Origin: Nitzschia sp. pyKryTriq1
Lineage: Eukaryota; Bacillariophyta; Bacillariophyceae; Bacillariales; Bacillariaceae
Assembly: GCA_956465555.1 (NCBI GenBank)
Contig: OY101121.1
Coordinates: 2,008,722-2,072,721, forward strand
Direction: 5' to 3'
DNA: 64,000 nt
How positions within the stretch are numbered: position 1 is the first letter of the stretch; every line of letters starts with the position of its first letter. A program made the translations under genes and the position numbers. Below the pieces are notes generated by a model, which was not told the DNA's origin, did no database searches, and saw only the letters and a program-made list of their open reading frames with translations. Shown one piece after another: positions 24,525-30,131 of the stretch.

Positions 24525-25607
24525 CTACACGACCCCGGGAGTGGACGCCATGGGCATTTTGGCCGCCTGGGGACTTTGACTTAGATCCAATCCAGCCGCT
24601 TGCCAGATCTTGACCATAGCGCTACTCGTATACTGCGTGCAAAGGGGATCGTTTTCGTGATAGGCCATGACATATTGCATTTTCGCATATCCTTCATTCC
24701 CAGACCCAAATCCACATTCTTCCACTAACGATGGACTTCCTCCCAAATAGACTTGATTGACTACCACATCTTGGATGATTTGGTGCTTCAAGCCCATTTC
24801 CATTTGAGGATCGGATTCTAGAAAAAACGACAAACAGCGCTTGAGGACCAACTTTCGAGCAATCATGCAAAATATTACCGACATTAGTACTTTCTCTCAT
24901 CCGTTCTTGAACTTACGAGCTGGAATTTTGGCACACTTCTGTGCCACCGTTTCAAGGACGCTTGGTTCCATCAGTTTGGAAGCCACTTTATGGACTGTGT
25001 TTCTAGCATCCACAATCCCCATTTCTTCTCCATTAGGCAAAACAGCATCTTCATCTAGTTGAAAGGCGGTCGCCAACATGTTTCGCCAAGTTTCTCTTCC
25101 CAGAGTTCGAAATTCCTCTTGTGCCGCCGGATCGCATCCACCAATGAACTGCGCCAACTGTTGCGTATACATCATGATCCCTTGTTCATTGGTATCGTAT
25201 CCCAAGGCTGCAATGGTATGCAGTTGAGCCCCGAGATAAATTTCCATCATGCGTTGCCATTTCTGGACCAAGGGCAAGTTTGGCGTCTGTGACAACAATT
25301 TCAGTCGTTGTTGTCCGACGCCGTATCGAAGAATCAATTGATTGGCACTTTGAATTCCTCGAGCCATTTGGATGTTTAATGATTTAGGAGGGACGGCGCG
25401 GAAGGTTGCTTGGGGATCGTCGGGAGGGAGAGCAGACGCAAAGGAACGAACGGCAGTGCTCGTAGCAGCGGACCGGCGGGAAATAAGGCTAGCCGTCGCG
25501 TCTTTCCAACACGACGTGGCCGCCATCGTCCTGCGGGTGGCCGATTGTCGGGCGGCCAAGAGTGCCGGCGATTTGATGCAGCGAACGAAATAATGAGCAA
25601 CCAACAT
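24525..25607 (-). CDS. Putative mitochondrial protein of unknown function
   Basis: Two exons, 25607-24917 and 24817-24525, with a 99-bp intron (GTAAGT donor; TACTAAT branch-like box; TTTTTTCTAG acceptor). Product about 327 residues. The first ~60 residues are rich in Arg, Ser and Ala with almost no acidic residues (MLVAHYFVRCIKSPALLAARQSATRR), a good mitochondrial presequence. The body is predicted helical and conserved-looking (YGVGQQRLKLLSQTPNLPLV, IYLGAQLHTIAALGYD, LGRETWRNMLATAFQLDED, QIIQDVVVNQVYLGG), without a motif I recognise. The intron is required because its frame contains an in-frame TGA. No function is proposed. Confidence 0.7.
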
Positions 25608-26535
25608 ATTGACAGAGTTATTGTTATTAGGGCTTTGGTTGATGATTGATTGCAGTTCTTCGGTAAGGAGCGCGAGATGAAATAATAAAGGACGACATCT
25701 GCAATACCGGGTACAACAATGTGCGGGGTGCGGGAAGAAAAGGAAGAAGATGCCTGCAACCTGCGATCTTTTTTTGCTGTTGGCAGTCGTTGTCAGAAGG
25801 AAGGCAGGACAGACCTACCGTTTCCGTACTGTACCTTTATCTGGTACAGTACATGTACCGGTACGTACCCGGTACTCGTACACACACTTTGAACTTGACA
25901 GAAACAGGAACATCCAAGGGTGCGGGTCACCGCGCACTAACGTGGAACTCGCTTTACGGGCACGCTTGGACAATGCTCTTTCGCGCTAGCCACGCTCCGT
26001 GGCAAAGCCCGCTTGGCCTGGGCCAAGATTCTTGGCCTAGGCCAAGAATTCTTGGCCTGGGCCAAGAATTCTTGGCCTGGGCCAAGACTTCTTGGCCTAC
26101 TCTTGGCCCAGGCCAAGAATTCTTGGCCTGGGCCAAGATTTCTTGGCCTAGTCTTGGCCCAAGGCCTACCCCCTTTCTGTACCCCCAAAAGAGTAAACAG
26201 ACTAGTCGTCGAATTTCAAACATCGCATCAGCGCATCAGCGCTCATCATCCCATTTCATCATCGCTCATTGAACAAATCCAAGATCTCTCGCATCGATTC
26301 ATTCTTCAATTTTCTCTTTTCTTCCCACCTACCATGGCATCTCTCACTCGAGGTGTCGCTTGTTTTGTGGCGACATCTCATCATCATCTCATCTTGGCAA
26401 TGGGATGTCGGCCGAACGGCTTTACTGTGTTGGCAGACGTCAATAGGAGACACCAGAAATCGTAACCATTCGCAAGAGCCCGCGTTCAGCTTCAATTATG
26501 GAAACATAGCCCAATCGTTGCTCACTGAAATTATC
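25608..26535. other. Intergenic region with palindrome array 1
   Basis: Contains GTACC palindromic words at 25827-25880 and the 157-bp array of CTTGGCC/GGCCAAG palindromes at 26012-26168 (listed separately), followed by an AT-rich leader of the RPC7-like gene. Open frames across the array encode repeated Gly-Pro-Gly-Gln/Trp-Ala-Lys peptides and are rejected. Confidence 0.6.
26012..26168. repeat. Tandem array of CTTGGCC-GGCCAAG palindromes (copy 1)
   Basis: About seven imperfect ~20-bp units built from CTTGGCCTGGGCCAAG joined by AATTC-type spacers; every junction CCAAGAATTCTTGG is itself a palindrome. The segment 26071-26150 aligns directly with 28376-28455 of copy 2 with about 7 differences in 80 bases by eye. 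Confidence 0.9.
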
Positions 26536-27248
26536 ATGTCAGGCAGAGGTAGAGGCCGCGGCCGTGGGGGGGCGAGCTCCGCCCTCGGGAGCACGGCTCT
26601 TGTTGCAGCGATCAGCTCAAGAAGCTGGTCTAGATGCCGGGAATCTGCGCAGCTTGCAAGACATTACCAAGCCTCTACTATTCCCGGATTTTGAATGGCA
26701 TTCGAGCGGCCAGAAGGGTCATGATCCAACGCCTTCGTCGTTGCAACCAGCTCAGTCCCTCATCCAAACGAGCCACGGCTCCCAACATTTATCTGATCAA
26801 CAAGAGCCGCGAAATGCATCATCGCTTCCAGGATTCTCCTTTCTATGTCCGACCGTCGCAAGAAGTTGACGTGGTCCGATACAACAAACGTCCGCGCCCT
26901 TTGGAACCAGATGTCCATGTAGCGGAGAGCATCGGCAAGACTGCCGATCCGCGGTACCTTCCCGAAGAACTTTTGCCTGACAAGCTTGTTGCTTTGCCCT
27001 TGGCTTCTTCTCACAAAGTTGGTGAATTAGGCGAGGATGGGACTCCGAAGCGAGCGTTGACGCTGGAAGAACTGGCAGCGGAGGAGCAACGAAAGAAAGC
27101 AACTGGGGAGGAAGGAGAGGAGGGGGAACTCAGTGACACAGCAGAAATCGAGGAGGAAGATGAAGAAGAGGTCGCCGATTACACGACAAACTATTACGCC
27201 AGTGATGATGAGAGTGATGGAGGCGACGGAGACGAAGCCGTCTTTTAA
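26536..27248 (+). pseudogene. RPC31: RNA polymerase III subunit RPC7 (Rpc31/POLR3G)-like, two frameshifts
   Basis: The coding signal runs through all three frames. Frame 1 (ATG 26536) gives MSGRGRGRGRGG; after a run of seven G (26566-26572) the signal moves to frame 2, with SGARLLLQRSAQEAG, then DITKPLLFPDFEWHSSG (the family's 'PLFP..E' element). Between about 26700 and 26770 it moves to frame 3 with NIYLINKSREMHHRF and SPFYVRP, ending in an acidic tail with ADYTTNYYASDDESDGG before TAA 27248, very like the Rpc31 C-terminus. Each shift equals one extra base. RPC7 is part of the Pol III initiation trimer (RPC3/6/7) in the nucleus. It may be a pseudogene, or a real gene with uncorrected homopolymer indels; the conserved peptide quality favours a recent event or sequencing error. 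Confidence 0.72.
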
Positions 27249-27514
27249 ATGATTGGTTCGTAGAGATATGCTCAGTTTTTGAAGCCGTAAAAATGTCTCC
27301 ATTAGAGGTTTTTAGTCGCTACGATCTCTTTCTTCTCAGTACGTATGCGTACCCGGTAGTATAAAGTCCCGACGAACATCGTACACATTAGTGGTTGTTA
27401 GTAAGGAAAAACAACAACGAAGGGTCGTATTTTGAATAGTAATCTACTCCGTAGTAGTCTACTACAAGAACGCGGACATCTCAGACACGACTCTCGCCAC
27501 TAGCAGTCGATCAC

Positions 27515-28225
27515 CTACTTCCCTCCAAACGCAACAGCGCGAAGCTCATCCTTTTGTTTCTTTTTCTTTTGACTGTTGCCTCCGTTGGGTTGTTCTGATT
27601 GGCCGCCGCCTGTTGCTTGCTTTGCTTGGCCATGAATTTCGTCGCACTCCCTCCCTGTGGGCCTTGATTGGCGGCTGCCACTGCCACGGACCCTGGTGAG
27701 GCCTTGGCTCGGACCACAGTAGCGGCTCCGGTACCACCCCATCTTCTTCTTGGAACCCATTACAGCAGGAGCTAGGCGGGCAGGCATGGCAGGGAAGTTG
27801 TTGGTCCTAGTTGCTGGCGACGACCTCACAGTGGGGGGTTGCGCGACCCTGCTGATAGCAGGGCCACTTCCACCCCATGATGAAGTGCCAGCGACGGCAA
27901 GATTGGGTCGCGTGGCCGCCGGTTTCTTTTCCGCAAATTGTTGTCGCCGGACGCTGTTCATGTATTGCAGGGCATGTTCAGAAGCTTGGGAATTCGGGCA
28001 GGATTCCAACAGCGACGGTAAGAAGGACCAAAAGTCTGGATCAGCATAGCCCCGATCGAACAGGGCTGCGGATTGATCGACATAGCCCTCAGGGGAGAGA
28101 CTACTTTCAGCAAAGTCTTTGGTGAGTCGTTTGAGCTGTTTGAATTTGTTTGGTCCAAGCGATGCTTTGATTTCTTCGACCGTCGCCTTGGCCGACACCG
28201 CCGATATCGATGGGGCTTGTAACAA
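27515..28225 (-). pseudogene. ZNF598/Hel2-like C-terminal fragment, 5'-truncated, compensated frameshift
   Basis: The open frame has no upstream RING, zinc fingers or credible ATG; it begins at a TTG shortly after a TGA, beside the palindrome at 28260-28281. The first ~100 residues (VEEIKASLGPNKFKQLKRL, SPEGYVDQSAALFDRGYAD, DFWSFLPSLLESCPN) match the C-terminal helical region of ZNF598/Hel2-type ribosome-collision E3 ligases. From about 27745 to 27575 the family-like peptide (WGGTGAATVVRAKA, SATKFMAKQSKQQAAANQNN) is in a different frame, consistent with one extra base after the AAGAAGAAG run and one missing C near the CCC run; the frame then returns for QKKKKQKDELRAVAFGGK. The original frame stays open throughout, so a product with a scrambled ~55-residue middle is possible. 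Probably a gene fragment; family assignment is moderately sure. Confidence 0.6.
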
Positions 28226-28250
28226 ATTAGATATGCACGTATGCTCTGTT

Positions 28251-28289
28251 GGTCCGAATCAGAGAACCATATGGTTCTCTGGTCCGAAT
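28251..28289. repeat. 22-bp perfect palindrome flanked by 9-bp direct repeats
   Basis: GGTCCGAAT occurs at 28251-28259 and again at 28281-28289; between and overlapping them is a perfect palindrome at 28260-28281 centred on CCATATGG. This resembles a minimal inverted-repeat insertion with target duplication, at the truncated 5' boundary of the ZNF598-like fragment. Confidence 0.6.
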
Positions 28290-28342
28290 GACCAACAGAT
28301 TTTTTTAAAAAATGGGGGGGGAAGCACAGAGAAGGGGGGCTC

Positions 28343-28494
28343 TAGGCCAAGAATTCTTGGCCCAGGCCAAGAATTTTTGGCCTGGGCCAAGAATTCTTGG
28401 CCTATTCTTGGCCCAGGCCAAGATATCTTGGCCTGGGCCAAGAATTCTTGGCCCAGGCCAAGAACCGTGGGCCAGGCCAAGAACCGTGGGCCAC
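28343..28494. repeat. Tandem array of CTTGGCC-GGCCAAG palindromes (copy 2)
   Basis: Same unit as copy 1 at 26012-26168 and in the same orientation by alignment of the unique ggcctaYtcttggcc junction. The last units degenerate to GGCCAAGAACCGTGGGCC, repeated twice. Confidence 0.9.
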
Positions 28495-29124
28495 GCTGAG
28501 AAGCAGACACCGCGGTTTCGATTTAACGCGCTTTTGAGTTCAGTGGAGGAAGGTGGAGCGCGCGTGATCGCTCGATCCTTGGATGTTCCAGCACCACCAT
28601 AATATGTCTGTACCGTACAGTACCAGTACTTCTTAGGCATACGTGTTCTTGGTTGGAGGCAGGTGTGGCCGGCTGCAGAATAACGTCGATTTAGCGGCAA
28701 AATGAACAACTCCGTTGTCTTTCGACGACCTTCGCGAGCGAGATCGCATCTTTCCAGCTTTCCGCGGCTGGCAGCAACGATGACGAAAGCAAAAGCCATA
28801 CAAGCAGGCGAGGAGTTTTTTGTGAAGCAAAGACGATGACAAAAGGACGAAAGCAAGACTCAAACCGCACAACAGCATTCATTCCGTCTATTTACTCGTA
28901 GACCACAAGCGGCAACGTTGAAGAGCAAACTTGCATTCATCTTTGGTTGACTGTAACGTAGAGACTGTCTCTAGCCGTGTGTACTTGTACTGGTATCCAA
29001 AGCACGATCCTACGAGCATTGCTTGATCTTCAAGACCCTTTCGCTGATTATTCACATCAATATTATTGTATCCGTTGCATAATACTCGTATATATTGAAA
29101 AGACAAAGCAAGCTTTCAGATACG

Positions 29125-29158
29125 ACAAGACAAGACAAGACAAGACAAAACAAGATAC
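29125..29158 (+). repeat. (ACAAG)n pentamer in the 5' leader
   Basis: Five to six copies of GACAA immediately precede the ATG of the CUE-domain gene, giving a purine-rich, unstructured leader. Confidence 0.8.
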
Positions 29159-29159
29159 A

Positions 29160-30131
29160 ATGGCGATTACTTACGAAGAAGCCTTGGGCACTCTCGAGGC
29201 CATGTTTGGTGAACCGTGGACCCGTGAAACCTTAGATGCGGTGCTGCGGCACGAAAAGGGCCACATGGAGAATACGTGCGAACAAATCTTGAATCACGGA
29301 TCACAAGAGCCTCAATTGTTGGTGGAGCGTCTCAAGAACGGTGGAAACAGCAACAATGGCGTACCGCAACATCAGCTGTCTATGGACGAGGAATTGGCGC
29401 GACAGTTGCAGGGAGGAGGAGGACGATCGGCTGCAGCTCCCGCCAGTGCTCCTAAAAAAGGACGGGGAACACCGACGGAGCTGCCCAAGGACTTTTTGAG
29501 AATTCCGGGATACAAACATCGATCTGCCGTAGCAGGAGGTAGTAGCGCAACCGCGGGAGAGGCCGCCATGGATGATGAGACACTGGCTCGGATGCTGCAG
29601 GATGAGCTCTTTTCGGAAGAATTGGCTCGGAATCCTGATTTTGCACATTTGGCACGGGGAGGTCGTGGCGGTGGAAATCGCCGGGCTGCTCCTCCAGGAC
29701 AACGGCGAACAAATGCTTCCAATGTAGCTCCTCCCAATCCATTCGAAGGAGTTCCGAATGTCATGGAGAATCTCTCGAGTACGTCCCTTCACCTTTTCAC
29801 TTTTTAATTTTATGTTGGTTTGTTCACAGACAGCAGGAGCTTATTGTACTGTGATGTTCGAGTGGAGACGATGATTCCAACTAACCCGTTTTTGTATTCG
29901 CTTGCTATTTTTACAGAACTTGGCGAGGGTGCTCGACGACGACTGCAAATGTTTGCCGTGAATTTTGAGAATAAGCTCAATGGTCGAAACAACTCTTCAG
30001 CGGCGGCTGGTGTACCACGGGCAGGTATTCTGCAGGAAGATACAGGCGCGGTGGCAGAACGTCGGGGTTTGCTGGACGATGACGGTGAGGAGGAGATTGA
30101 ATTTGAAATGCGAGAAAAGAAGAGTAATTGA
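29160..30131 (+). CDS. CUE-domain (ubiquitin-binding) protein
   Basis: Two exons, 29160-29778 and 29917-30131, intron 138 bp (GTACGT...TTACAG). 277 residues. Residues ~4-45 (YEEALGTLEAMFGEPWTRET ... HMENTCEQILNHG) have the CUE/UBA-like pattern: a 'L..MF' first-helix motif and a Leu-rich third helix that contacts ubiquitin. The middle is low-complexity Gly/Ala/Pro with two short acidic helices (DEELARQLQ and DDETLARMLQDELFSEELA) that look like duplicated ubiquitin- or partner-binding helices. The C-terminus has GARRRLQMFAVNFENK and an acidic tail. It is probably an adaptor in ubiquitin signalling or trafficking; the specific pathway is unknown. Confidence 0.78.

Follow-up and report, generated by a model that had tools for sequence, protein, structure and literature searches.

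A probable PIF/Harbinger-type transposon carrying copies of RPC7-like and ZNF598-like host genes in the diatom Nitzschia sp. pyKryTriq1

The window, meaning the whole 64,000-nucleotide stretch that was analyzed, corresponds to C7:2008722-2072721 of the Nitzschia sp. pyKryTriq1 assembly, and genome searches were made in this same assembly (40.65 Mb, 20 contigs). Eight loci in it match silicic-acid transporters above the cut-off, as expected of a diatom host. It contains an RPC7-like gene and a piece of a ZNF598-like gene, which lie between two arrays of short palindromes. In an initial annotation, this block was considered to be either a mobile or duplicated unit bounded by the arrays or a region in which sequencing indels had been left unpolished. 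We found that the two genes are the inner part of a 2,681-bp DNA transposon, located at 25908-28588 and flanked by CAG on either side. Its parts, in window positions, are as follows.

25905-25907, no strand: left target-site duplication CAG, matching 28589-28591; its last G could equally well open the element
25908-26011, plus strand: left terminal domain, which opens with GAACATCCAAGG and is conserved among full-length copies
26012-26166, no strand: left subterminal palindromic array, six units of ~20 bp (self-comparison, motif search, folding)
26167-26353, plus strand: transposon-derived left inner part (from the match of window 25903-26355 to a 5.9-kb relative)
26354-28235, no strand: 1,882 bp of captured host sequence, matching C11:897879-899773 (reverse) at 98.4%
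26536-27248, plus strand: full-length copy of RPC7 (Rpc31/POLR3G-like), frame broken by two 1-bp indels
27515-28235, minus strand: ZNF598-like piece, the last 249 of 868 codons, with a 10-bp and a 5-bp deletion and an open frame
28236-28343, no strand: transposon-derived right inner part (matches to the 5.9-kb relative at 28235-28259 and from 28280)
28344-28496, no strand: right subterminal palindromic array, six units (self-comparison, motif search, folding)
28497-28588, minus strand: right terminal domain, closing with CCTTGGATGTTC (TIR search, flank comparison)
28589-28591, no strand: right target-site duplication CAG, matching the left one

On either side of the element there is an open frame, 24897-25814 on the minus strand and 28962-29807 on the plus strand. 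Since these frames point apart, the element may occupy an upstream region common to both. A Pfam search of the flanking genes gave only sub-threshold matches, that of the right frame being CUE. For the genes inside the element, family searches supported the names given initially: PAH_ZNF598 matched the window piece above the cut-off (E 2.4e-6), and Rpc31 was matched weakly (E 0.0038, below the Pfam cut-off). The name RPC7 thus rests on this sub-threshold match together with the initial call.

The two arrays of ~155 bp were recovered as described. The consensus 16-mer of their units, with up to three mismatches, had 23 matches (12 places, both strands counted), every one of them within the two arrays, and shuffled controls gave a mean of 0.43 and a maximum of 3 matches. 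Predicted folding of the arrays was far more stable than that of shuffled sequences (z of -14.3 for the left array and -15.7 for the right). The arrays had been said to stand in the same orientation. They do match directly, at 92% over 115 bp, but an equally good match is found in inverted orientation (94% over 62 bp), and because the units are palindromes, the relative orientation of the arrays is uninformative. The palindrome also occurs elsewhere: the exact 16-mer was found at 73 + 67 places in the assembly (0 for the reversed control), with positions given for 100 of the 140.

The arrays do not mark the boundaries of the element, which lie ~105 bp outside the left array and 92 bp outside the right one. 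Similarity among copies extends beyond the arrays and ends at GGAACATCCAAGG on both sides. This 13-mer occurs at 53 + 49 places in the assembly, as opposed to 2 + 2 for the reversed control. The ends of the element carry a 12-bp terminal inverted repeat (TIR), GAACATCCAAGG at the left and CCTTGGATGTTC closing the right end. The first 60 bp are the same in all ten full-length copies. It had been suggested that the block has foldback-type ends, with the palindromic arrays themselves as the mobilized termini. Such arrays do stand near both ends and are able to pair, but they are subterminal, the conserved ends are TIRs of the PIF/Harbinger type, and two short elements have these TIRs and no palindrome. 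We therefore consider a foldback-type element highly improbable.

To describe the family, element pairs were drawn from 100 of the 102 places of the TIR 13-mer (the matches listed) and counted by eye. The 28 complete elements examined make up 28 of the 29 close inward-facing exact TIR pairs among these matches. Left out of the set were C16:605115 and two elements with one mismatch at one end each (C11:788629 and C2:2849356). A CWG triplet was present on both flanks of 27 of the 28 elements. The two triplets were identical in 23 elements, including all ten full-length copies (P 5e-4 if W is random), and unequal in five. A 1-bp duplication of W is an equivalent reading of CWG because the outer G/C of the element is fixed. 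The sequence GTAC was found within 12 nt of the element in 44 of 56 flanks, compared with 127 of 1,779 CWG sites in the window.

These flanks bear on whether a transposase is needed at all. The block could in principle have been spread by duplication of a segment or by recombination between palindromic arrays scattered in the genome, given the 140 exact 16-mers genome-wide and the presence of two like ends in 3 of the 28 elements. However, copies are bounded exactly by the TIR outside the arrays, between CWG triplets, and the flanks beyond differ. Spread of this kind is very unlikely.

The inner 1,882 bp of the element was copied from the host genome: it is 98.4% identical to C11:897879-899773, where both genes are intact. 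A genome search for such intact copies had been proposed in the initial annotation. Alignment of window positions 26354-28235 to this donor is unbroken, with 12 mismatches and 6 gaps. At the donor locus, the open frames of RPC7 and ZNF598 span 236 and 868 codons, respectively; the latter has C2H2 and PAH matches above the cut-off and RING matches just below it. The two genes converge there, and a single segment therefore brought along the whole of RPC7 together with the final 249 codons of ZNF598. Within 9.9 kb around the donor locus, the sole BLAST match to the element was the captured segment itself, and within 1.5 kb on each side of it there is one TIR-like site, with two mismatches and ~1.1 kb away. 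Thus, TIRs and target-site duplications enclose host gene sequence with no transposase inside, and the parental copy lies elsewhere without a TIR element. The captured block is a Pack-TYPE capture. The overlaps counted by eye at its junctions with the transposon (left, 2 bp; right, 1 bp) are, as far as sequence can tell, in keeping with template switching.

Other elements of the family were considered as carriers of further captured single-copy genes, and three candidates were rejected: 1,079 bp in C12:880459, 531 bp in C7:1013816, and 396 bp in C4:1768923. These stretches were taken as other repeats because they have 51, 54, and 31 genome matches, respectively. The 1,079-bp stretch, in C12:880459-883204, is an abundant repeat that recurs at many places as two halves (1-378 and 375-1079). 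Five elements contain five further unmatched stretches of 48-194 bp.

The inner 2,181 bp of the element is present in ten full-length copies, the window included. Nine are 99-100% identical and one, C1:3973227-3975793, is 97% identical; partial copies and shorter relatives are also present in the assembly. In an alignment of the ten copies and the donor, the nine young copies differed pairwise by 0-6 substitutions (mean 2.6 across ~2.17 kb). The window copy and C8:2039166 show no difference over 2,683 bp; C7:1754535 departs from the window copy at two bases. Such near-identity suggests recent or current activity.

Both genes had been reported as broken, by four single-base shifts. Relative to the donor there are indeed four indels, two of them of 1 bp in RPC7, where they break the frame in the nine young copies. 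The ZNF598 indels, however, are deletions of 10 and 5 bp with scrambled sequence between them. ZNF598 is truncated, but because its deletions sum to 15 bp, its frame stays open in all nine young copies (247 codons, no stop).

All four indels are common to the nine young copies and absent from the older copy C1:3973227 and from the donor. It had been proposed that hairpin-forming arrays depressed coverage and left unpolished indels in two real host genes, the only ones of their kind. The hairpins predicted for the arrays are indeed very stable. Yet identical indels are seen at nine loci, each with its own flanks, whereas neither the tenth copy nor the donor, whose genes are open, has them. Assembly error is excluded on these grounds, and an origin of the block as an artefact of assembly or polishing is extremely improbable. 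The alternative raised at the same time, a mobile block with gene fragments, agrees with the ten dispersed full-length copies, the inverted ends, the target duplications, and the intact donor elsewhere. Since the element is mobile and amplified, the two damaged genes are transposon-borne copies rather than sequencing errors.

The older copy retains a complete 236-codon RPC7 frame, with four silent and three replacing changes, and an unbroken ZNF598 C-terminal frame. In the part covered by the donor, it has ~11 private substitutions, as opposed to 2 on the stem of the young copies. The simplest order of events starts with a single capture, from which an older branch remained unbroken; one lineage then decayed, and its decayed form went through a burst. 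Judging from its reading frame, C1:3973227 may be a duplicate gene that, though it lies in a transposon, could be expressed. We also considered whether the capture was retained because its cargo works, either as a second RPC7 or through a regulatory antisense RNA useful to the host. The intact RPC7 frame of the older copy, with only three amino-acid changes, would fit this. However, the frame is broken in nine of the ten full-length copies, and five of the seven changes in the ZNF598 part of the older copy are replacing. We regard a useful cargo as unlikely.

A potential source of transposase is a single-copy element of 5,948 bp, C1:1691690-1697637, which has the same ends as the window element, CAG flanks, and 5 + 7 palindromes. 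The left inner part of the window element holds the leader and the start codon (ATG, 26334) of one ORF of this 5.9-kb relative, which the captured DNA interrupts after the first codons. The relative carries an exon that matches PF13359 (DDE_Tnp_4) above the cut-off, at E 7.6e-7 and over profile positions 1-155 of 158. Judged by eye, an open exon lies before it, and a single intron bounded by GT..AG separates the two. A genome search with the DDE exon gave one full match and five further ones of 34-37% identity, at C11:65291, C6:983428, C9:1408313, C13:710630, and C3:3510334. C6:983428 and C9:1408313 have equal scores and are perhaps copies of one family. A PDB sequence search of the exon against solved structures returned one designed protein (E 0.044, unconvincing), and an NCBIfam scan of three proteins gave for it only an IS5 match, far below the cut-off (E 0.045).

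The 5.9-kb element has two further ORFs, of 461 and 481 aa from stop to stop. Neither matched a Pfam family above the cut-off, and neither had another full-length match in the genome (365 aa of the second were searched). For the first, the 439 aa from the ATG were modeled by AlphaFold with a mean pLDDT of 38, with three N-terminal helices of low confidence (pLDDT of about 50-66). This ORF is a tentative candidate for the Myb/SANT partner protein of Harbinger elements.

With a family member that encodes a transposase of the DDE_Tnp_4/IS5 kind, 12-bp TIRs, and 3-bp flank triplets, the family has the marks of the PIF/Harbinger type (PHIS). Its CWG flanks differ from the TWA target duplication of PIF/Harbinger proper. 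Taking the evidence together, we hold it very probable that the block, with its gene cargo, is a non-autonomous Pack-TYPE element of a DNA transposon family of the PIF/Harbinger type in this diatom.

The subterminal arrays vary a great deal within this family. Among the ten full-length copies, the left array ranges from 38 to 148 bp and the right one from 39 to 151 bp; because these copies are nearly identical otherwise, the arrays must change much faster than the rest of the element. Palindromes were found in both halves of 22 of the 28 elements and were missing from one half in four and from both in two (189 and 252 bp, the short elements noted above). Thus, not every copy strictly needs the arrays. 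Where palindromes are present, the first begins at base 106-109 in 24 of 26 elements, including the transposase-encoding one. The elements with two like ends are C2:1792128 and C4:1768923, with two right ends, and C10:1073295, with two left ends. Together with the strong variation in array length, they suggest that the hairpin-forming arrays recombine. Both elements with two right ends have unequal flank triplets, CAG/CTG.

These features would fit the following course of events. One element may have acquired the host segment when repair or replication switched templates, and the transposase of the 5.9-kb element would then have mobilized the product in trans. Insertion would proceed by cut-and-paste into CWG inside GTAC-rich palindromic sites. 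Palindromes at a fixed distance of ~105 bp from the left end are probable binding sites for transposition proteins. In the zebrafish Harbinger3_DR, a Myb-like protein is described as binding a 9-bp subterminal motif (PMC9710019), which by analogy makes a protein-binding role of the palindromes plausible. Hairpin formation by the palindromes could also cause units to be gained or lost and ends to be exchanged. A further idea, tentative and on balance rather doubtful, is that the arrays act as a device for capture and end swapping, where replication forks stall inside the element and template switching reshuffles ends and inserts whole host genes. This would constitute a Harbinger-based route of gene duplication in diatoms, of which C1:3973227 might be a working product.

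CWG duplications are the defining mark of NuwaI, a PHIS (PIF/Harbinger-ISL2EU-Spy) group reported in 2015 from 16 animal genomes (PMC4482050). As described there, NuwaI shares with the diatom family its CWG duplications, a Harbinger-kind DDE transposase, short TIRs, and extra ORFs beside the transposase. Its TIRs are said to "usually" start with GGG, whereas those of the family in this diatom host start with GAA, or with GGA if the shared G is included. Pack-TYPE elements of maize and rice, including Pack-PIF, are likewise non-autonomous TIR elements with host gene cargo that are thought to be mobilized in trans (PMC8903248). According to the same account, the duplications of PIF elements in plants are mostly TTA or TAA, unlike the CWG of the diatom family; compared with the plant elements it describes, the palindromic arrays and a cargo of one complete gene plus part of its neighbor are particular to the diatom element.

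Animal Pack-TIRs, as summarized in PMC8277862, are also cargo-bearing TIR elements, a few of them multicopy, with a median breakpoint microhomology of 2 bp, similar to the 2 and 1 bp seen here. They are mostly hAT and Tc/Mariner elements with a median cargo of 224 bp, whereas the diatom element is of Harbinger type and carries 1,882 bp. In the fungal capture of histone H3 by a hAT element, a host gene was similarly captured and amplified while the original was kept (PMC6710886); that account gives hundreds of copies, inactivated by RIP, as opposed to ten full-length copies with inherited indels here. Among stramenopiles, Ectocarpus has Harbinger families, and some of its cargo-only giant elements were likened to Pack-MULEs (PMC12477816); the description of the Harbinger targets there gives ANT or TNA, with no mention of CWG, in contrast to the diatom family. 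In a search of the open-access literature, none of the titles listed dealt with gene capture in diatoms, and we make no claim that such capture is absent from the literature. The mechanism class is known. What appears to be new is the combination of a diatom host, the CWG group, palindromic arrays, and a whole-gene cargo.

In this diatom, then, a Harbinger-type transposon that targets CWG has recently captured host genes, and the capture is present in multiple copies. Because the donor, an older copy, a young burst, and a transposase-encoding relative are all present in one assembly, the order of capture, decay, and burst can be read and tested. For annotators, the ten apparent extra copies of RPC7 and ZNF598 in this genome are transposon cargo. 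The suggested recent or current activity of the family may make it usable as a mobile-element tool for diatoms.
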